A stretch of DNA of 64,000 nucleotides, from contig MPDD01000012.1 of NCBI GenBank assembly GCA_001874265.1, positions 1-64,000 on the forward strand. Direction: 5' to 3'. This document shows positions 37,677 through 50,066 of this stretch, in pieces. The stretch is from Bacteroidetes bacterium MedPE-SWsnd-G1 (GTDB taxonomy: Bacteria; Bacteroidota; Bacteroidia; Flavobacteriales; Flavobacteriaceae). The notes under the pieces were generated by a model. That model ran no database searches, had not been told where the DNA came from, and saw only the letters and a program-made list of their open reading frames with translations. The translations under genes and the position numbers were made by a program. Positions within the stretch are counted from its first letter, which is position 1, and each line of letters begins with the position of its first letter.

Positions 37677-37801
37677 GAATTTTCAAAGTTTATTGTAAAT
37701 GTACCAAAAAGTTGACTCAACAAACTTTATTTTAATACATAAAATTTAACTTTTGGTACGATTATTTCTTGCTACTTTTGATCAACATTAAAACCAACTT
37801 G

Positions 37802-39448
37802 ATGCACTTTATTAAAATGCTATCTAGAGTAACTTTGATTTTTTCATTTGTTATCTCTTGTTCACATGTCCCTGATTCGGCCAAAACTAGAATTCTTTTT
37901 ATTGGAAATAGTTATACTTATTACAATAGCTCTCCAGAATTATTAAAGTCAATGGTCAAAGAAAAATTTCCAAACCATGAAATTGAAATAAAATTAGTAA
38001 GTCAAGGCGGAATGACATTGAAAAGACATTGGGAAGAAGGACATGCCTTGGAAACTATTAAATCGAAAGATTGGGATTATGTGGTTTTGCAGGAACAGAG
38101 TAAACTAGGCATGGGACTTATTATTGATAATGATATATATTTTGGGAATACTGATAATTTTTTTGAATACGCTAGAAAATTCAATACTGAAATTAAAAAT
38201 ATAGGAGCAAAAACTGTTTTTTTTATGACATGGTCTACTAAAAACAAACCAAATGAACAGGTGATTCTGACACATGCATATAACCAAATAGCAAGTGAAT
38301 TAGATGCAATTCTTGCGCCCGTAGGGTTAGTTTGGGATAAATTAAGAGTAAATAATTCTCTTAGTTTATACGACCCGGACGGCTCGCACCCATCTGAATA
38401 TGGCTCGTTTTTAGTTGCCTCGACCATATTTTCAACAATTTTTAAAGAATCAACAGAAGGGCTTTCAAATAAAATATCAGGTTTTCGATTGTCAAGTAGA
38501 GGTGAGCCTTCTGAAGAGGAAGAAATCTTATTGCAATTAAATCAAAAGAATATAGAATTCATTCAAAAATCAAGTTGGAATGTTGTGAGTAAATTGGCAA
38601 AGAAGGGTGGCTATTTAAAATTAAATGAGCCTACGACAACGTACTCAATTCCTGAAATCATTATTGGAGATGAGATTAATTCGGAAAAGATTGACGGACG
38701 TTGGTATGGAACTTCAACCTATAATAATGTTTATCTGGGGTTAATTTTAGACATAACTTCTCAGTCAACAGGTATGGAAGCCGAAATTTCTTTTTTTACT
38801 CCTGATAGAACTGATATGTTAAAAGTTAAGAAGGTTGTTGTTGAAGATGATCTTTTAAAAGTGATTATTTCGGATTCTATTAGAAATATGAATTCTAAAA
38901 TAAGATTTACATTAAAAAATGGAGTGCTAGAAGGGGTCTCAGAATCTTTTGGAGGGAATATAAAAAATTATAAAAATTGGAACCTCTCGAGGGATAATAT
39001 TAAAGGAGGTGTTGACTTGGAACAGTTGCTTAATATGATATCCGATTTTAATGTAGATATAAAGAATAGAAATTATATAGAGGCTTCTTTAAGGCATTAT
39101 AATAAATATAGTAAACTGGTCGGAGAAGAATACAAGCCATCAGAAAACTACTTAAATGCGCAGGCATACAACTATTTTCAGAGCGGTGAAAACGAATTAG
39201 GAATGGATGTTTTATCTTTGGTGCTTGAATTTTACCCTAACTCAATAAACACTTATATCAGTTATGGCGAAGCTTTAAATAGACTTGGAAAGCAAAAGGA
39301 GGCTATTGATATATTTAAAAAAGGAATTGAAATTGCCTTGAAAAATGAAGATCCATTATTACCGGTAATTCAATCAAATTTAGATGATTTAAATGAAAAC
39401 AAAGCGTTAGATGAAATTCCACCACCACCTCCGCCTCCAAATAGATAG
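37802..39448 (+). CDS. SGNH/DUF4886-like esterase lipoprotein with C-terminal TPR and polyproline tail
   Basis: Lipobox VISC; GNSYTYYN block; DGSHPSEYG; TPR-like C-terminus; terminal IPPPPPPPNR. Confidence 0.75.
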   Translation: MHFIKMLSRVTLIFSFVISCSHVPDSAKTRILFIGNSYTYYNSSPELLKSMVKEKFPNHEIEIKLVSQGGMTLKRHWEEGHALETIKSKDWDYVVLQEQSKLGMGLIIDNDIYFGNTDNFFEYARKFNTEIKNIGAKTVFFMTWSTKNKPNEQVILTHAYNQIASELDAILAPVGLVWDKLRVNNSLSLYDPDGSHPSEYGSFLVASTIFSTIFKESTEGLSNKISGFRLSSRGEPSEEEEILLQLNQKNIEFIQKSSWNVVSKLAKKGGYLKLNEPTTTYSIPEIIIGDEINSEKIDGRWYGTSTYNNVYLGLILDITSQSTGMEAEISFFTPDRTDMLKVKKVVVEDDLLKVIISDSIRNMNSKIRFTLKNGVLEGVSESFGGNIKNYKNWNLSRDNIKGGVDLEQLLNMISDFNVDIKNRNYIEASLRHYNKYSKLVGEEYKPSENYLNAQAYNYFQSGENELGMDVLSLVLEFYPNSINTYISYGEALNRLGKQKEAIDIFKKGIEIALKNEDPLLPVIQSNLDDLNENKALDEIPPPPPPPNR

Positions 39449-39450
39449 TA

Positions 39451-39487
39451 TAAAAAAACTCCTTCTATTTTTAGAAGGAGTTTTTTT
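39451..39487. terminator. Bidirectional terminator hairpin
   Basis: aaaaaaactccttctatttttagaaggagttttttt. Confidence 0.85.
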
Positions 39488-39505
39488 ATATAGAATTCAA
39501 TATTT

Positions 39506-41959
39506 TTAAATTAAAGCAGGGTATGCTTTAGGATTCGCTTCGTGCATAATTTTATATGCGGCTTCAAAGATGTCGTTTTCATTTGGTTTAGAATAATAGT
39601 CACCATCAGTACCATAAGCAGGTCTGTGAGCCTTAGCACTTAAGGTTGCCGGTTTAGCATCTAAGTATTCGTATCCATTCTGGTTTTCGAGTACTTCTTG
39701 CAGGATATATGCAGAACCTCCACCTGGAACATCCTCGTCAACAATCAATAACCGGTTAGTTTTTTGTAAACTTTTAACAATATCATGTTTAATGTCAAAT
39801 GGTAAGAGAGATTGTACATCAATTACTTCAACATTTATATTTACATGTAACAAATCTTTCGCTACTTGTTCTACAATGCGTAAAGTAGATCCGTAAGAAA
39901 CTATAGTAATATCATCTCCTTCTTTTAACGTTTCTACAACTCCAAGCGGAGTAGTAAATTCTCCAAGATTGGTTGGCAACTCTTCTTTTAGTCGATATCC
40001 ATTTAAACATTCAATTACTACTGCAGGTTCATTAGCTTGTAAGAGCGTATTATAAAAGCCTGCCGCTTTTGTCATGTTTCTAGGGACCAATAAGTGTATG
40101 CCTCTAAATGCACCAAGCATCATAGCCATTGGTGATCCAGAATGCCAAATTCCTTCAAGTCTATGTCCTCTAGTTCTAATAATTACAGGAGCAACTTGTT
40201 GGCCAAAAGTTCTATAACGCAAGGTTGCAATATCATCACTCATTATTTGGAGTGCATAGATTAGATAATCTAAATACTGAATTTCTACAATTGGTCGAAG
40301 TCCTCTTAAAGAAAGACCAATACCTTGTCCCATTATTGATGCTTCTCTAATACCAGTATCTGCAATCCGAATCGCTCCAAACTTTTCTTGTAATCCTTCT
40401 AAACCTTGATTTACATCTCCAATAAACCCAACATCTTCTCCGAAGGTCATTAATTGAGGATATTTATTGAATAAGGCGTCAAAATTATCACGAATTACAA
40501 TTCTTGCATCGACATGGTTAGACGTTTCACTATAAGAAGGTTGAATGCCTTCAATTGCCGTCGTAGCATTTAAACTGTCATCGTATAATTCAGAACTATA
40601 TTTTTCTTGAATGTTGCGTTGCTTCGTTTTTAACCAATGTAAAAACTGATTTTTCTCATCAGAAGTATCATTGGCTAAGAATGGTAAAGCTTTTCTAAGA
40701 AGCGTAAAAATATCTTTTCTTAAAGGCTCATGTAATGATTTTAAATCATTTACGGTTTTTTGTAAAAACTGTTTGTTAGAACTTTTAAACGCTGCTTTTT
40801 CTAAATAAGGTATTGCTTCATGTAAATCTGCATAGATGGATTCCGTATAAGATTTCCAAGCGTTTCTTTTTGCAATACTCACTTCTTTTTTAGCTGCTTT
40901 TTCAATAGCAATTAAATCGTCTTCTGAGTCTATAAATCTTAAGATTTCTCCATTCGATTCCAATTCAAAATCAAGAATCCATTCGCGCATTTTTAAATTA
41001 CAATCGTGGTCTCTTTCCCATTGCAAGCGTTCTTTAGATTTATAACGCTCATGAGACCCAGAGGTCGAATGACCTTGTGGCTGTGTTACCTCTGTAACAT
41101 GAATTAAAGCAGGGACATGTTCTTTACGCGCTAATTCTGCAATTTTATTATAGGTGTCAATTAATTGTACGTAATCCCATCCCTTAACTGTTACTATTTC
41201 GTAACCTTTATTCTTAGAGTCTCTTTGAAATCCTTTTAAAACTTCAGAAATGTTTTCTTTTGTTGTGTGATGTTTTGCATGTACCGAAATACCATATTCG
41301 TCGTCCCAAACACTTATAACCATAGGAACTTGTAATACTCCTGCTGCATTAAACGTTTCAAAAAACAATCCTTCACTAGTGCTGGCGTTTCCAATAGTAC
41401 CCCAAGCAATTTCATTTCCTTTTTTAGAAAAGTTCTTACTGTGTTCTTTTACGGTATCTAATTCTCTATAAACTTTAGAAGCTTGTGCTAAACCGAGCAG
41501 TCTTGGCATTTGACCAGCGGTTGAAGATATATCGGCAGAAGTATTGTATTGTTCTGTAAGATTGTTCCATGTGCCATCGGGCTTTATGCTTTGAGTTGCA
41601 AAATGTCCTCCCATTTGTCTTCCAGCTGAAAAAGGTTCAGCATTTACATCAGGATGTGCATACAGGCCAGCAAAAAACTGTTGTGGTGTTAATTCACCCA
41701 GAGCAAACATAAAAGTTTGATCTCTATAATAGCCAGATCTGAAGTCCCCTTTTTTAAAGGCTTTGGCCATAGCTAATTGCGGAATTTCTTTTCCGTCACC
41801 AAATATTCCAAATTTTGCTTTTCCGGTCAACACCTCTTTTCTCCCTAGCAAACTACATTCTCTACTCAATACTGCAATCCGATAATCATTTAAGATTTCT
41901 TCTCTAAATTGCTGGAATGAAAGTTGTTCGGTGTTTTTAGAAGTTTTTTCAGAGACCAT
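39506..41959 (-). CDS. Thiamine-diphosphate-dependent dehydrogenase, E1 alpha-beta fusion (2-oxoisovalerate dehydrogenase-like)
   Basis: E1-alpha-like N-terminus and E1-beta-like C-terminus (MTFGEDVGFIGDVNQGL ... DEDVPGGGSAYI) in one 817-aa ORF. Confidence 0.92.
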   Translation of the reverse strand: MVSEKTSKNTEQLSFQQFREEILNDYRIAVLSRECSLLGRKEVLTGKAKFGIFGDGKEIPQLAMAKAFKKGDFRSGYYRDQTFMFALGELTPQQFFAGLYAHPDVNAEPFSAGRQMGGHFATQSIKPDGTWNNLTEQYNTSADISSTAGQMPRLLGLAQASKVYRELDTVKEHSKNFSKKGNEIAWGTIGNASTSEGLFFETFNAAGVLQVPMVISVWDDEYGISVHAKHHTTKENISEVLKGFQRDSKNKGYEIVTVKGWDYVQLIDTYNKIAELARKEHVPALIHVTEVTQPQGHSTSGSHERYKSKERLQWERDHDCNLKMREWILDFELESNGEILRFIDSEDDLIAIEKAAKKEVSIAKRNAWKSYTESIYADLHEAIPYLEKAAFKSSNKQFLQKTVNDLKSLHEPLRKDIFTLLRKALPFLANDTSDEKNQFLHWLKTKQRNIQEKYSSELYDDSLNATTAIEGIQPSYSETSNHVDARIVIRDNFDALFNKYPQLMTFGEDVGFIGDVNQGLEGLQEKFGAIRIADTGIREASIMGQGIGLSLRGLRPIVEIQYLDYLIYALQIMSDDIATLRYRTFGQQVAPVIIRTRGHRLEGIWHSGSPMAMMLGAFRGIHLLVPRNMTKAAGFYNTLLQANEPAVVIECLNGYRLKEELPTNLGEFTTPLGVVETLKEGDDITIVSYGSTLRIVEQVAKDLLHVNINVEVIDVQSLLPFDIKHDIVKSLQKTNRLLIVDEDVPGGGSAYILQEVLENQNGYEYLDAKPATLSAKAHRPAYGTDGDYYSKPNENDIFEAAYKIMHEANPKAYPALI

Positions 41960-42037
41960 GGGATGATTTTATGGACTGCAAATTTAAGAATATTTAATGA
42001 ATTATCAAAATGAGGCGTATTATTTAAATTATTTTCA

Positions 42038-44854
42038 CTAAAAAAAGCCTCTTCTAGCGAAATTAATAATTTTTTTAGGATTTATTGATAATACGAATCT
42101 TATCCTTGTTGGATAGGCCTCTTGAGTGATTTCCCAACCATTATTGGAATACACTGGAAAATAGACTTCTAGGATTTCATGTACAAAATTTAACCGTATT
42201 CCATTCTCATAGGCAAAAAATGTGGACTCATTTTTACTTTTCAATAAAGCCACATCATTGTACACCTCAATCCATCGCCATAATCCAATACTAGAGTTAA
42301 AGGAAACCATCCATTGATTTGCAAAGTTTTTTTCAACATGTGATTTAAAACCTCCTTCACTAGTAATGTACTGTTGGCTAAAAAAACCAGATTCTTCTGA
42401 ACGACCGAAGAAATTTAATCGGAAGAGGTAATCGTTTTGCTTAGATAAACCATAACTAAAAAAGTCAGATTCAGTTTTGTTACGTAAAAATACACCTGCA
42501 AACAATCTAAAATCAAATTGTCTTAAGTTATCCGTTAATCTTCGATATCTGAGATCGTATGATAGTTTGGTAAAATCACTTTCAAATTCCAAATTTGTGG
42601 CATGTCTAAAATCTTCAATAAGTGCAGGTTTCGAATACACATAACTCAAACTGAAAATGTTGTATTTATACTCTTCTGGGTTTGGTGCTATCTCATTAGG
42701 ATCAATATCTCTTTGTATCGCCGATAAACTAGCAATTAATGCGCTACCTCCAACATCTCTTAAACTCTTTCGTTTAAAATTAAGAACTGCATAGGGTGAG
42801 AATGTTTGATATGACAAATCGGTATCGTAGTGGAAATAACTACCGGCAAAACCCAATTGTAGTCTGTCTATAACTGTTTCCTCAGGTGTATATTCATAAA
42901 GCAAAGAAAATGAACCAGTTAAACTTTGAGATTTTATTCCATAAAAAGGTTGAAGCCTGTAAGAGAATGGTTTGTTTAATAGTGATTTGTTTGAGAAGTT
43001 TAACCCAATTTGCAAACCATCATAGTAGTTGTATTTTCCCTTGGCATCATAAAAGATTTGATTGTAATATGGGTTTTCAATATCCTTAAATAATTTAAAT
43101 TTAACTGGGCGGTCGAATAGTCTTTTTTTAACACTCTTCCAGTTGTCTCTTAGGTTTAATTCTGGATACTTAAACTCATAATTTAATGCGAGTCTATCAA
43201 TGCTGTCTTTAGGTATTCTTACAGTGGCCGTAGAGTCTATATTTGAATACCATTTTTTATATTTAATTTCGTTATTGTTGACACCATAAAGCATTACTGG
43301 AACTGTAATGTTTCGCTTGTTTTTTATCACTACATCGATAGAATCTCCTACGACGTTAATCTTTTTGATGGTATAGTCTATTTTCTTTTTTGATTGTACA
43401 TAGTCTCCAAAAAACCATGAAAGATCTTTACCTGTGCTATTAATCAAGTTGTTTTTAAACGATTTACTTGAACTATTTTTGAGAACATTCTCATTATAAA
43501 ATTCTTTTATGTTTTCTGAAATAAGATCTTTACCTATATAGGCATCTAAGTATTCTAGCCCAAGACCTGCTTTGTATTTGTTTACAAGTTTACGATTGAA
43601 ATTAGAAAGGGAATCGGCACTTTTGCTCAATGCTTGATCTACATTTTTTCGGGCAGCGAATTGATATACAAAAGGGTATTTATCATTAAAATCTAGTTTG
43701 GCCAAATTAAAAGTTCTGATACCCCACACTTTTGATATGTTTCCAATAGCCTTTATTTCTGGGTAATAGGTTTCAACATATTTCATCATTAAATAATGCT
43801 GAATTCCATCTGCTAGCCACATATCTTCTCTACGATTTATTAATAACGTATTGTCTATATATGTTTTAGATAAAATTTTAAACATTTTAATGTCCCATTC
43901 AAAAGCATCAGAAAAAGGTTGAATAAAAGAAGGTAGTTGGTTTAATCCATATACTGGATTTTTTAAATAAGCAATCCTGTCAACAAATAGTTTTTTATGA
44001 GGGTATTTTCCGAGTTGCTCTTCTAAAAACGCCATTTCTCTCCCTAATATATCGCGTCTAACATTTAGATCTAAATTTACCGACTTCATATTAGATTCTA
44101 TGATAACATTGTCCGTTTCGTAATTGGTATAATCAACTATTGGACTGATCGATAGTTCTATATCTACACGTTTTTTTCCTTTTAAATGATAAATTCTATC
44201 ATTATTATTTGTTTCGGTAGTACCGATTAAACTAGAGCTTAATCTGTAAAACTTCGGAACGGCAATTTTGATGTCATAATCTGCAATATCCATATACAAA
44301 TCATCCATGTTTAAATTGCTCATTAACTCCCATTTATCCGTATAATTTGCAGGAACTAGATACCAATATCTTAAATTAAAAAATTCTCGATTTCGGCCAT
44401 AGCTGGTATACTTATCAGATGGGATTCTAACTGTGTAGGTAAGATTTAACTGAGTTGAACCCCTAGGTTGAATTGTTTCATTAAGTGGAATTGCAATTAT
44501 ATCAGCAATTCCATTATATTCAATAAAATTGATTGATTGAAAATCAATTGAAATGTTTTTTATGGTTGTTTCTCCACGGTGTTTGTCTTTTGCAAAATAT
44601 AGTGTTTTGTTATAATCTTCAATTAGTCTTTTTGCCAGTGGTGTTTCATTATCTCTATACCCATTCATCCAATTATGAAGGAAAATTGTATCTAATGGTT
44701 TTTCAGAGTTATTATTAAAAATAATTTGCTGTTGTATATGAAGAGCGTAATTTTCAATATCTAAAGATGCATCAATCTTTATTTCATTGGTTTGTGCTTG
44801 GATAAAAAACGTCCAAAGCAATAGAAAACCGACAAGAATTTTTTGAATCTTCAC
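42038..44854 (-). CDS. M1 aminopeptidase-like protein (apparently zinc-site-less) fused to predicted outer-membrane beta-barrel
   Basis: Signal peptide; M1-like domain with MWLADGIQHYLMMKY; barrel-like aromatic/alternating C-terminal third ending in F; no HExxH found. Confidence 0.7.
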   Translation of the reverse strand: MKIQKILVGFLLLWTFFIQAQTNEIKIDASLDIENYALHIQQQIIFNNNSEKPLDTIFLHNWMNGYRDNETPLAKRLIEDYNKTLYFAKDKHRGETTIKNISIDFQSINFIEYNGIADIIAIPLNETIQPRGSTQLNLTYTVRIPSDKYTSYGRNREFFNLRYWYLVPANYTDKWELMSNLNMDDLYMDIADYDIKIAVPKFYRLSSSLIGTTETNNNDRIYHLKGKKRVDIELSISPIVDYTNYETDNVIIESNMKSVNLDLNVRRDILGREMAFLEEQLGKYPHKKLFVDRIAYLKNPVYGLNQLPSFIQPFSDAFEWDIKMFKILSKTYIDNTLLINRREDMWLADGIQHYLMMKYVETYYPEIKAIGNISKVWGIRTFNLAKLDFNDKYPFVYQFAARKNVDQALSKSADSLSNFNRKLVNKYKAGLGLEYLDAYIGKDLISENIKEFYNENVLKNSSSKSFKNNLINSTGKDLSWFFGDYVQSKKKIDYTIKKINVVGDSIDVVIKNKRNITVPVMLYGVNNNEIKYKKWYSNIDSTATVRIPKDSIDRLALNYEFKYPELNLRDNWKSVKKRLFDRPVKFKLFKDIENPYYNQIFYDAKGKYNYYDGLQIGLNFSNKSLLNKPFSYRLQPFYGIKSQSLTGSFSLLYEYTPEETVIDRLQLGFAGSYFHYDTDLSYQTFSPYAVLNFKRKSLRDVGGSALIASLSAIQRDIDPNEIAPNPEEYKYNIFSLSYVYSKPALIEDFRHATNLEFESDFTKLSYDLRYRRLTDNLRQFDFRLFAGVFLRNKTESDFFSYGLSKQNDYLFRLNFFGRSEESGFFSQQYITSEGGFKSHVEKNFANQWMVSFNSSIGLWRWIEVYNDVALLKSKNESTFFAYENGIRLNFVHEILEVYFPVYSNNGWEITQEAYPTRIRFVLSINPKKIINFARRGFF

Positions 44855-44955
44855 AACAATTTGGTAGGATTAAATCTCTATAACTTACTAACGCATTAAA
44901 TGTACCGTTTTGGTATAAATAATGCGTTAAAATAAAGAAATTTATAAATTGAATT

Positions 44956-45675
44956 TTAAAAGTTTGGACTCAAACTATATTTTTTGTAGAATTCATTTAT
45001 CACATCAATTACTTCATCTTCGGTATCAACTAATGAAATAAGGTCTAAATCCGTTTCACTAATGCTGCTATATTTTTTGAGCAGCGTGTCTTTAACCCAG
45101 TCTAATAATCCACTCCAAAACTCGGTGCCAACTAATATAATAGGGAACGCGCCAATTTTTTTTGTTTGAATTAAAGTAAGTGCTTCAAACATTTCATCTA
45201 AGGTTCCGAAACCTCCTGGCATTACAACAAATCCTTGCGAGTATTTTACAAACATTACTTTACGAACAAAGAAATAATCGAAATCTAGATTTTTATCTTT
45301 ATCGATCCATGGATTGTCGTGTTGTTCAAATGGCAATTCAATATTTAATCCAACCGAAACACCTTTTCCTCTATGAGCACCTTTATTACCAGCCTCCATA
45401 ATTCCAGGTCCTCCACCGGTAACTACTCCATATCCATTTTGTGATAATTTATATGCGGTACGTTCTGCTAATTCGTAATATTCATGACCAGGTCGTAATC
45501 TGGCAGAACCAAAAATACTAACGCAAGGACCTATTTTACTAAGTTTTTCATAGCCCTCAACAAATTCTGCCATAATTTTAAAAATGGCCCAAGAATCATT
45601 GGTTTTAACTTCGTTCCATGTTTTGTGCTTGAATTTTTCTTTTATTTTTCTATCTTCATTTGGACTCATAATCAT
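44956..45675 (-). CDS. TIGR00730/LOG family Rossmann-fold protein
   Basis: VVTGGGPGIMEAGNKGA and VVMPGGFGTLDEMFEALT. Confidence 0.94.
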   Translation of the reverse strand: MIMSPNEDRKIKEKFKHKTWNEVKTNDSWAIFKIMAEFVEGYEKLSKIGPCVSIFGSARLRPGHEYYELAERTAYKLSQNGYGVVTGGGPGIMEAGNKGAHRGKGVSVGLNIELPFEQHDNPWIDKDKNLDFDYFFVRKVMFVKYSQGFVVMPGGFGTLDEMFEALTLIQTKKIGAFPIILVGTEFWSGLLDWVKDTLLKKYSSISETDLDLISLVDTEDEVIDVINEFYKKYSLSPNF

Positions 45676-45709
45676 TTATTTTTTTGCAATTTCTAAAAAA
45701 GTGAGCCTG

Positions 45710-48535
45710 CTAAGATAGTTCTTTTATTAGGAATTTAGAGGTGTAACTTTTTTTGTTTTTAACAATTGATTCTGGGGTTCCAGTGCATAGAATTTCGCCT
45801 CCTTTTTTACCGCCTTCGAGTCCTATATCAATAATATGATCTGCGAGTTTTATAACATCCATATTATGCTCAATTACCAATACTGTATTTCCTTTATCGG
45901 TAAGTTTATTCAATACTTCCATTAGTACGCGAATATCTTCAAAATGTAAGCCAGTAGTGGGTTCGTCTAAAATATAGAATGTATTTCCAGTATCTCTTTT
46001 GGAAAGTTCAGACGCTAATTTTATTCGTTGTGCTTCACCACCAGATAATGTTGTAGACTGTTGCCCTAAAGTGATATAACCCAAACCAACATCTTTGATT
46101 GTCTTTAATTTCTTGTAAATCTTCGGGTATTTTTCGAAGAAATCAGCCGATTCATTTATGGTCATATTTAGAACATCAGATATAGATTTTCCTTTATGCC
46201 TAATCTCTAAGGTTTCTCTGTTAAATCTTTTTCCTTGACATGTTTCGCATTCAACTTCTACATCTGGTAAAAAATTCATTTCAATAATCCTAACACCACC
46301 TCCTTGGCAAGTTTCACAACGACCGCCCTTGACATTAAAAGAAAAACGACCAGGTTTATAACCTCTAATCTGAGATTCAGGAATCTTTGTAAAAATACTT
46401 CTAATATCACTAAAAACACCCGTATATGTTGCAGGGTTAGATCGAGGCGTTCTTCCTATAGGAGATTGATCTATGGCAATAATTTTATCTATATGCTCTA
46501 GACCTTTTATGGATTTATAAGGCATCGGTTTTTTTACACCGCGGTAAACATGATGATTTAAAATAGGGTAGAGGGTTCCGTTTATTAAGGTTGATTTTCC
46601 ACTTCCAGATACCCCTGTTACACAGATTAATTTACCAAGAGGGAATTCGGCTGTAACATTTTTTAAATTATTACCACTTGCTCCTTTTAGAACTATTTTA
46701 TTGCCATTTCCTTTTCTTCGTTGCTTTGGAATTTCTATTTTTTTTCGCTCGGTTAAATAGTCAGATGTTAGTGTTTTATGCAACTTTAATTCTTCGAAAG
46801 AACCTTCACTCACAATTTCACCGCCATGTCTGCCGGCACCAGGACCAATATCTAAAACATAATCAGCTTTTTCAATCATGTCCTTATCATGTTCAACGAC
46901 TAATACCGAATTGCCAACATCTCTTAACTTAACCAAAGAATCGATTAATTTTTGATTATCTCGTTGATGAAGTCCGATACTAGGTTCGTCCAAAATATAT
47001 AGAACTCCAACTAATTGAGATCCTATTTGAGTGGCTAATCTAATTCGTTGTGCTTCTCCGCCAGATAGTGATTTCGAAGTTCTGTCAATGGTTAGATAAT
47101 CCAATCCAACATCCACTAAAAACTGAATACGTGTTCGTATCTCTTTTATTATTTCTGAACCAATTGTTAATTGACGTTCTGTTAGATTTTGTGAAATATC
47201 TTTGAACCAATTTGCCATTTCAATCACATCCATTTGTGCTAAGTCGGCAATGTTATTACCATCTATTTTAAAATGAAGCGCTTCTTTTTTAAGGCGTTTA
47301 CCATGGCAGGTTGTGCAATTAACTTCATTCATAAAACCTTTAGCCCATCTTTTAATAGAAGTAGATTCAGAAGTATTGTATTGGCTTTGAATAAAATTGA
47401 TGATTCCTTCAAAGTCTATTTCATAATTTCGGGTTATCCCCATGGTTTTTGAGGCAACCTTAAATTTCTCGTTTCCTCCATTCAAAATAATATCTAAAGC
47501 TTCTTTAGGAATTTTGGATATAGGATCTGTTAATTTAAAATTATAACGTTCTCCAATTAATTCTAATTGTTTAAAAATCCAACTGCTTTTTTGTTCACCA
47601 ATTGGCGCAATTGCTCCATTCTTAATAGACATAGAATTATCCGGAATAATCTTGGTCTCGTTAACAATGTTTATTTTTCCTAATCCATTACAAGTTTGGC
47701 AAGCCCCTTTAGGCGAGTTGAATGAGAAAGTATTTGGTTCAGGATTTTGATAGGCAATTCCCGTTGTTGGACACATCAATTCTCTACTAAAGTAGCGAGG
47801 TTTTTCAGCGTCATGCTCTAACACCATCATTACATTGTTTCCAGAGTATAATGCTGTTACAATAGATTCAGATAAACGTTTTTCGATGGATTCATTTATT
47901 TGTAAACGATCAATTACAATTTCAATATCATGGTTTTTGTAACGGTCTAATCGCATTCCTTTTTCGATGTCTACAATCTCGCCATCAACACGAACCTTTA
48001 CAAAACCTTGCTTGGCAATTTGCTCAAATAACTCTCTATAATGCCCTTTTCTAGATTTTACTACCGGGGCAAGGATATTTACTCTTTTTCCATCAAAATC
48101 ATTTAAAATAAGTTGGCGAATATGCTCATCGCTATAACTCACCATTTTTTCTCCAGTATTGTATGAATATGCATCTGATGCTCTGGCAAAGAGTAATCGC
48201 ATAAAATCATAGATTTCGGTTACGGTTCCTACCGTTGATCTAGGGCTTTTATTTGTTGTTTTCTGTTCAATAGCAATTACAGGAGATAAACCGTCAATTT
48301 TGTCAACATCCGGTCGTTCTAATCCGCCTAAGAATTGACGTGCATATGCAGAAAAAGTTTCTATATATCTTCGTTGTCCTTCAGCATAGATAGTATCAAA
48401 GGCTAATGAGGATTTTCCACTACCACTTAGACCGGTTATAACCACCAATTTTTCACGTGGTATACGAACATCAATATTCTTTAAGTTGTGAACCCTCGCT
48501 CCTAAAACATCTATATATTCTTGCTGATTTTTCAT
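45710..48535 (-). CDS. uvrA: Excinuclease ABC subunit UvrA
   Basis: [23 protein letters not shown]; zinc-finger CxxC pairs; two LSGGEAQRI signatures. Confidence 0.98.
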
Positions 48536-48689
48536 GTAAAATATTGGAAAAACGCAAAGTTACAGAAATGTTATTAGAAAATTATATAATGTGAGTTTAT
48601 ACTTGTCAGTTACTTTTTGATAATTATTATAAATTCGATAGGCAATAGTGTTTTCACTTTACTATTTTTAGCACTTAAAATTTATTTAC

Positions 48690-50066
48690 ATGGAATTATT
48701 AGATAGTTGGATAGCATCGTTTGCTTCTTTTGTATGGGGATTGCCCTTATTAGTGTTGTTAATAGGAGGAGGGTTGTATCTTTTAATTCTGTCAAAATTT
48801 TTGCCTTTTCGCTATTTAGGACACGCTATCCAAGTATTACGTGGAAAGTATGATGACCCTAATGATCCTGGACAAATTAGTCATTTTCAGGCCTTAGCAA
48901 CTGCTTTATCTGCTACTGTAGGTATGGGTAATATTGCTGGAGTTGCAGTAGCAATATCAATTGGTGGTCCTGGGGCAGTATTTTGGATGTGGATTAGTGC
49001 AATTGTAGGGATGTCTACAAAATTTTTCACGTCTACACTGGCTATTATGTATCGAGGGAAAGATAGTGCAGGTGAACTACAAGGAGGACCGATGTATTTT
49101 ATAAGAGAAGGATTAGGGGCCAAATGGAAACCTTTAGCCGTTATGTTTAGTATTTGTGGTTTAATTGGAGCCTTTCCAATTTTTAATGTAAATCAACTAA
49201 CACAAGCTATTAATGATATTTTATTAAAACCAAATGGAGTAGATGTTGGCTTAGGTTCTAATATTATTATCGCGTTAATTCTTGTTGCGCTTACTTCTGT
49301 GGTTATTTTAGGAGGCTTGAAAAGAATAGGTAAAACGGCTTCTAGATTAGTACCATCTATGGTGGTGTTATATTTTGTGTTGGTCGTTATCATTTTGGTG
49401 GTAAATATGAATGAAGTTCCAAAATACTTTTTAATGATTTTTACAGATGCATTTGAAGCGAACCATATGAAAGGTGATGCTGTTTTTGGAGGAGTTTTAG
49501 GAGCATTAATTATCCATGGAATTCGAAGAGGAGCATTTTCTAATGAGGCCGGAATAGGAACAGCGCCAATGGCGCATGGAGCGGCAAAAACGGATGAGCC
49601 AGTAAGAGAAGGTTTAGTTGCAATGTTAGGCCCAGCAATTGATACACTCGTTGTATGTACTTTAACCGCTTTAGCAATTTTAGTAACTGGTGTTTGGCAA
49701 ACAACAGAAGCAAATGGAGTAAGTTTAACAGCTTCGGCGTTTAATAATGCCATTCCGTCGATTGGAAGTTATTTACTCTTGTTGTGCATTGCTATTTTTA
49801 GTATTTCTTCCTTGTTCTCCTATTCGTATTACGGAACAAAATGTATGTCGTACTTGTTTGGTGCAGATAAAAAACATTATTACAACTATTTTTACATCGC
49901 TAGTATCGTTATTGGAGCAACAACATCATTAAGTATGATGATTAATTTGATTGATGGCGTATTTGCATTAATGGCTATACCAACAATGACAGCGACTATT
50001 ATTTTAGCACCAAAGGTTGTTAAAGAGATTAAGAGTTATACTTCAAGATTGAAGTCAGGAAATTAA
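48690..50066 (+). CDS. Alanine/glycine:cation symporter family (AGCS)
   Basis: FQALATALSATVGMGNIAGVAVAI; RGAFSNEAGIGTAPMAHGAA. Confidence 0.95.
   Translation: MELLDSWIASFASFVWGLPLLVLLIGGGLYLLILSKFLPFRYLGHAIQVLRGKYDDPNDPGQISHFQALATALSATVGMGNIAGVAVAISIGGPGAVFWMWISAIVGMSTKFFTSTLAIMYRGKDSAGELQGGPMYFIREGLGAKWKPLAVMFSICGLIGAFPIFNVNQLTQAINDILLKPNGVDVGLGSNIIIALILVALTSVVILGGLKRIGKTASRLVPSMVVLYFVLVVIILVVNMNEVPKYFLMIFTDAFEANHMKGDAVFGGVLGALIIHGIRRGAFSNEAGIGTAPMAHGAAKTDEPVREGLVAMLGPAIDTLVVCTLTALAILVTGVWQTTEANGVSLTASAFNNAIPSIGSYLLLLCIAIFSISSLFSYSYYGTKCMSYLFGADKKHYYNYFYIASIVIGATTSLSMMINLIDGVFALMAIPTMTATIILAPKVVKEIKSYTSRLKSGN

Follow-up and report, generated by a model that had tools for sequence, protein, structure and literature searches.

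What does an M1-peptidase-like protein do when it has lost its zinc site and is joined to an outer-membrane barrel? This question is raised by a gene on the minus strand of the window, the 64,000-nucleotide stretch of DNA analysed here. The earlier note had given an ORF at 42038-44854, minus strand, 938 aa long and ending in Phe. The ORF was recovered as described, with GTG as the start codon and ...RRGFF as the C-terminus, and its parts are listed below with the evidence for each.

42038..44854, minus strand: whole gene, pseudo-M1 peptidase / Omp85-like barrel protein of 938 aa (ORF list, AF2 model, orthologues)
44795..44854, minus strand: signal peptide, residues 1-20, ...FFIQA before Q21 (sequence and Q21 column)
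44090..44791, minus strand: M1 domain I (beta saddle), residues 22-255 (model DSSP; Foldseek to IRAP/ERAP)
43385..44089, minus strand: residues 256-490, M1 domain II, which is thermolysin-like and the catalytic domain of M1 enzymes but has no catalytic residues here (Pfam, model, Foldseek, alignment)
43931..43948, minus strand: former GxMEN exopeptidase motif, now G303-L-N-Q-L-P308 (alignment)
43865..43879, minus strand: former HExxH, now K326-I-L-S-K330 (alignment)
43808..43810, minus strand: former third zinc ligand Glu, now D349 (alignment)
43577..43579, minus strand: former catalytic Tyr, now K426, followed by the invariant Y427-K428 (alignment)
43175..43384, minus strand: M1 domain III (beta sandwich), residues 491-560 (model DSSP)
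42041..43066, minus strand: residues about 597-938, a predicted outer-membrane beta-barrel of 15-16 strands, Omp85-like (barrel-only model; Foldseek)
42335..42439, minus strand: long loop between strands 11 and 12 (Omp85 loop 6 position), residues 806-840, GRSExxGxxSQQ...EGGFKS (alignments, barrel model)
42254..42256, minus strand: D867 in a strand-13 Y-x-D-x-G motif, at the position of the conserved Omp85 strand-13 acid (alignments)

Q21, the predicted mature N-terminus, was invariant among 40 orthologues, and a lipobox Cys was absent from the signal peptide of the 938-aa protein. Since the Bacteroidetes Q-rule, as set out in the accessible part of PMC10653852, makes Gln the mature N-terminus after SPase I cleavage, the invariant Q21 is as expected of such cleavage.

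As a single sequence, the protein matched Pfam Peptidase_M1 with an E value of 0.0013 and 18.9 bits, below the cut-off of 27.7. Some degenerate orthologues exceeded this cut-off (32.9 and 28.1 bits), and the site-keeping orthologues scored 54-77 bits. None of the NCBIfam profiles matched the 938-aa protein, and PDB sequence searches with the protein and with profile A1 gave no real match, the weak annexin hits being chance. A comparison of an AlphaFold model with M1 structures, which the earlier note had proposed, was then informative. The AF2 model of the whole protein, built from 40 sequences (the query window and related loci), had a pLDDT of 78 and a pTM of 0.72, and Foldseek matched it to IRAP, ERAP1 and ERAP2 with E about 1e-19 over approximately 600 alignment columns, as expected of an M1 fold. 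The single sequence gives only a weak sign of M1 kinship, which the orthologue scores and the model together make secure.

Active M1 gluzincins carry an HExxH-(18)-E zinc site. This site is not present in the 938-aa protein, as judged from the alignment columns and from a motif scan of the whole ORF. On the minus strand, K-I-L-S-K is encoded from 43879 onwards and the codon of D349 runs to 43808, as given in the earlier note. Its proposal, made by spacing, that the two His are replaced by K326 and K330, the Glu of HE by I327 and the third-ligand Glu by D349 holds in gapless columns against the intact-site orthologues L093, L096, L097 and L098; H-E-V-G-H of L097, for example, aligns gapless onto K326-I-L-S-K330. 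A second HExxH had also been denied for the ORF, and none was found there or in 84 near homologues. Moreover, GxMEN and the catalytic Tyr are not present, the aligned columns holding GLNQLP and K426. HExxH, the third Glu and the Tyr were found in all 31 site-bearing homologues, in which the GxMEN Glu was likewise complete (31/31) and the Met nearly so (29/31); in all 35 other homologues the three were absent as a set and the GxMEN Glu was lost together with them. Both the M1 fold and the loss of the catalytic elements are thus well supported. The protein is like the M1 aminopeptidases (gluzincins; IRAP, ERAP1/2, APN, LTA4H) in domains I, II and III and in the position of every motif, whereas it differs from them in having no zinc ligands, GxMEN or catalytic Tyr, in the barrel that replaces helical domain IV, and in the presence of a signal peptide.

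The residues that took over are themselves conserved: in the Flavobacteriaceae set, G303, Q306, L307, P308, K326, Y427 and K428 were found in 40/40 sequences and D349 in 39/40. Since Q306, K326, D349, Y427 and K428 lie at or adjoining former catalytic positions, the M1-fold domain might be a cryptic enzyme that hydrolyses something via other residues. However, HExxH, the third Glu, GxMEN and the catalytic Tyr were lost together and no other HExxH set exists, and we consider hidden catalysis quite improbable.

The C-terminal barrel, which had been expected from about residue 580, was predicted by the models and by Foldseek and begins near residue 597. The barrel-only model (residues 555-938; pLDDT 75, pTM 0.74) contains 15-16 strands by DSSP. 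Strands 11 and 12 are joined by a single long loop that the model resolves poorly but that is highly conserved; the best-conserved segment of the whole protein, compared across the order, lies in this loop. The best 50 PDB matches of this model in Foldseek all belonged to the Omp85 superfamily (TamA, BamA, Sam50, FhaC, CdiB, including F. johnsoniae BamA); among these 50 the best E value was 1.6e-6 and the TM-scores were moderate, 0.20-0.55. The model is that of a predicted 16-stranded barrel of Omp85 shape. Neither an alternative HExxH...E site nor a missing barrel was encountered, and the evidence supports the earlier reading, an outer-membrane barrel bearing a degenerate M1 fold.

With the Omp85 superfamily (BamA, TamA/TamL, Sam50, FhaC) the query shares the predicted 15-16-strand barrel, the long conserved loop that links strands 11 and 12, and the strand-13 Y-x-D-x-G, in which D867 may be the functional equivalent of the conserved strand-13 acid. 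Unlike these proteins, it has no POTRA domain and no RGF/Y motif, and it escapes detection by Pfam and hhalign. In loop 6 of the query family, GRSE stands in place of (V/L)RG(F/Y), with the Arg and the strand-13 acid nearly always kept. As for POTRA, residues 491-596 are modelled as beta strands and coil with a single 4-residue helix, and domain III has no beta-alpha-alpha-beta-beta pattern; Omp85 proteins without POTRA do exist, according to the part of PMC4104836 that was available. Pfam PF01103 does not detect the query barrel sequence, and hhalign of the barrel against BamA, TamL and small Omp85 paralogues of the sampled genomes was not significant. Since these profile comparisons were not significant, the case for Omp85 is built on structure and on a sister family with an intact site, whose members (1055-1145 aa) are the following.

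L237, 2089-5289, minus strand: M1 sister family member
L240, 3174-6608, minus strand: M1 sister family member
L241, 1592-4756, plus strand: M1 sister family member
L242, 1886-5098, plus strand: M1 sister family member
L243, 1156-4587, plus strand: M1 sister family member

These proteins, from small-genome Flavobacteriales (families f6, f8 and f11), combine an intact HEIxH...E site with a loop 6 of canonical sequence, GGGLNLRGY, and with a strand 13 of the F-A-D-A-G type. L237 matched TIGR03303 BamA with an E value of 1.1e-7; against PF01103, its ORF was above the cut-off in the genome search, yet it was unlisted by hmmscan at E<=1. In the sister family, an Omp85 barrel is joined to an M1 enzyme. 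In a local profile-profile comparison, the start of the query-family barrel scored 38 against the sister family, and the best of 20 block shuffles scored 25.7. A sequence link from the query to Omp85 runs only indirectly, through the sister family, and is supported but not clean.

A separate observation concerns L202-L203 on contig C5 of the window's own genome, where three tandem short ORFs of 365-374 aa gave weak PF01103 matches. They are apparently a row of POTRA-less barrel proteins.

The barrel-bearing homologues were found throughout the class Bacteroidia. An orthologue alignment had been suggested in the earlier note as a check on whether the ligand loss is conserved, and a tree of 66 homologues was built with the active-site columns left out. 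The HExxH-E site was kept in 31 of the 66, namely all sampled members outside Flavobacteriales and members of four families within the order (f4, f6, f11, f14). The 35 homologues without the site all lie on one side of one branch, which has a support of only 55. One loss branch suffices to explain this distribution; shuffled labels require about 22 changes. A single loss of the active site, in the common ancestor of most Flavobacteriales, is probable; given the branch support of 55 and the long branch of L099 in this tree, there may have been a second independent loss. Automatic annotation as an M1 metallopeptidase would be wrong for most of the order. Four points go beyond the earlier note: the Omp85-like character of the barrel, the existence of intact orthologues, a loss common to most of the order, and the accompanying loss of GxMEN and the catalytic Tyr.

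Pairwise dN/dS was 0.02-0.11 for domain II (only pairs with unsaturated dS) and 0.00-0.21 for residues 316-365, similar to the barrel. Since the substitute residues are conserved and dN/dS is 0.00-0.21, the former site is not decaying. The loss is shared and the gene is under purifying selection; it encodes a pseudoenzyme under selection. In one sample, the gene was present in 63/64 Flavobacteriaceae genomes. It was missing beside E1, the downstream neighbour described below, in G036 and G263 (99% complete) and in G029 (91%), and since a few Flavobacteriaceae genomes lack it there, it is not strictly essential. The loss of all catalytic residues and the few genomes that dropped the gene could be taken as signs of a decaying, functionless gene; full-length open frames in almost all genomes, dN/dS well below 1 and conserved synteny contradict this, and the idea deserves practically no credence. 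A mobile-element origin was also considered and rejected, as no phage match was obtained and four Riemerella plasmids hold ordinary M1 enzymes only. In genome G036, a direct-repeat tract at L280:8492-9098 was read as overlapping low-complexity ORFs (FVRLLFVICSS repeats).

The surroundings of the gene were compared over 166 loci, with unequal flank lengths, so that the neighbour counts are lower bounds. The neighbours, whose family names we take from recognition of their sequences, and a nearby site are as follows.

45710..48535, minus strand: upstream, UvrA-type ABC protein, found in at least 86/166 loci
44956..45675, minus strand: upstream, LOG / TIGR00730-type Rossmann protein, conserved in at least 115/166 loci
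39506..41959, minus strand: downstream, fused 2-oxoacid dehydrogenase E1 alpha/beta, conserved in at least 133/166 loci
39449..39490, minus strand: intrinsic-terminator-like site after E1, a consensus match only and the sole one on either strand in 39400-48700

Where E1 was found, it was nearly always directly downstream. In the intact-site orthologue L093 it lies 70 nt downstream, and therefore the dead and intact forms share the same locus. The sequence is consistent with one co-directional unit of uvrA, LOG, the pseudo-M1 gene and E1. Convergent with E1, a 559-aa ORF at 37769-39448 on the plus strand of the window begins like a lipoprotein, contains an SGNH-hydrolase-like segment (GNSYTYYN) and has a TPR-like C-terminal part ending in PPPPPPPNR.

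These neighbours bear on a role in peptide capture or uptake, in which the pseudo-peptidase would bind peptides and hand them through the barrel, or act as a surface-exposed receptor. The M1 cleft of active enzymes binds peptide N-termini, and a barrel is at hand. However, loop 6 usually plugs barrels of the Omp85 type, and the conserved UvrA, LOG and E1 are no uptake genes; we regard uptake as unlikely. As for the side of the membrane, both termini of an even-stranded barrel are periplasmic. Since the predicted barrel would be of this kind, the M1 part is most likely periplasmic. The earlier note had left it as periplasmic or surface; barrel topology would leave the periplasmic option.

PlpD offers a comparison, as its patatin domain has been shown to be periplasmic (PMC11116518). 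PlpD-type patatin-Omp85 proteins likewise have an N-terminal enzyme fold attached to an Omp85 barrel (PMC11116518), whereas the enzyme fold of PlpD is patatin, PlpD has a POTRA, and the query has an M1 fold with a lost active site. The 'Metallo' subfamily of Omp85 (PF00149 + Omp85) also has a non-POTRA N-terminal enzyme domain, as far as the available text of Heinz and Lithgow 2014 (PMC4104836) describes it; theirs is PF00149, unlike the M1 fold here. The same portion of that paper gives no M1 form among its ten Omp85 subfamilies (PMC4104836), and the word 'peptidase' is absent from the paper (PMC4104836). Like the Bacteroidota BAM subunits BamG/H/M/P/I/J/K, the query would be a Bacteroidota-specific outer-membrane biogenesis factor; unlike it, they have FadL-like, carbohydrate-binding or PPI folds, and none is described as M1-like in the accessible parts of PMC12611786 and PMC12578637. 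In the sections consulted of the TamL paper and of two BAM papers of 2025 on Bacteroidota, the query protein is not among the subunits named from F. johnsoniae or Bacteroides, nor does it appear in the TamL paper. BamM of F. johnsoniae, whose name refers to metal ions, was ruled out as its identity because BamM has a PPI fold in the same sections. A search of the open literature, with few subscription journals and preprints among it, returned no published description of an M1-Omp85 fusion.

From the strong conservation and the conserved neighbourhood we infer a non-enzymatic role, likely protein or peptide binding at the outer membrane. The earlier note had proposed a binding domain, and the strong purifying selection over the former active-site region fits this proposal. 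Constraint on the former cleft is no weaker than on the residues around it, which suggests ligand binding without cutting, and since this dead cleft is combined with an Omp85-type barrel, a receptor or chaperone role in outer-membrane assembly, translocation or homeostasis is proposed. We tentatively favour, at a little short of an even chance, an outer-membrane protein of Omp85 type that has, instead of POTRA domains, a pseudo-aminopeptidase in the periplasm, kept as a binding module. M1 domains I-III would have lost zinc and catalysis and then been retained for binding, with the M1 part hanging in the periplasm. The former peptide cleft would be lined by the conserved substitutes, with a possible K326-D349 salt bridge replacing zinc and GLNQLP replacing GxMEN, and might hold polypeptide segments or ends without cutting them. 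With this M1 receptor, the barrel and its conserved loop 6 would take part in the assembly of outer-membrane proteins, in translocation or in envelope homeostasis.

The main rival is a PlpD-like arrangement, possible though clearly the less probable, in which the barrel is an anchor, perhaps dimeric, and the M1 remnant, instead of receiving polypeptides, serves lipid or envelope homeostasis in a structural or regulatory capacity. PlpD is an Omp85 protein with a periplasmic N-terminal enzyme domain, it is homodimeric, and the lipid composition of the membrane changes when it is lost (PMC11116518); furthermore, the loop-6 RGF/Y of assembly-active Omp85 proteins is replaced in the query family. 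Against this, conservation in the former peptide cleft matches or exceeds that of the remainder, suggesting that a ligand or an internal contact is important at this place. Returning to the binding-module reading, a more speculative and rather doubtful extension is that the M1 module in place of POTRA marks an undescribed Bacteroidota Omp85 branch. Its ancestral form would act at the outer membrane by trimming or checking N-termini, and the form in most Flavobacteriales would have become a non-cutting receptor feeding clients to the barrel. If true, a new N-terminal module would be added to the short list of Omp85-type architectures. Since intact and dead orthologues both exist, one intact form with the same downstream neighbour, the role of an outer-membrane pseudo-peptidase is directly testable.

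In family f7 (L177-L188, L251, L253), the former active-site and GxMEN regions were far more variable than in Flavobacteriaceae, and the barrel was well conserved. The pseudo-peptidase and the barrel may be under different constraint in this family.
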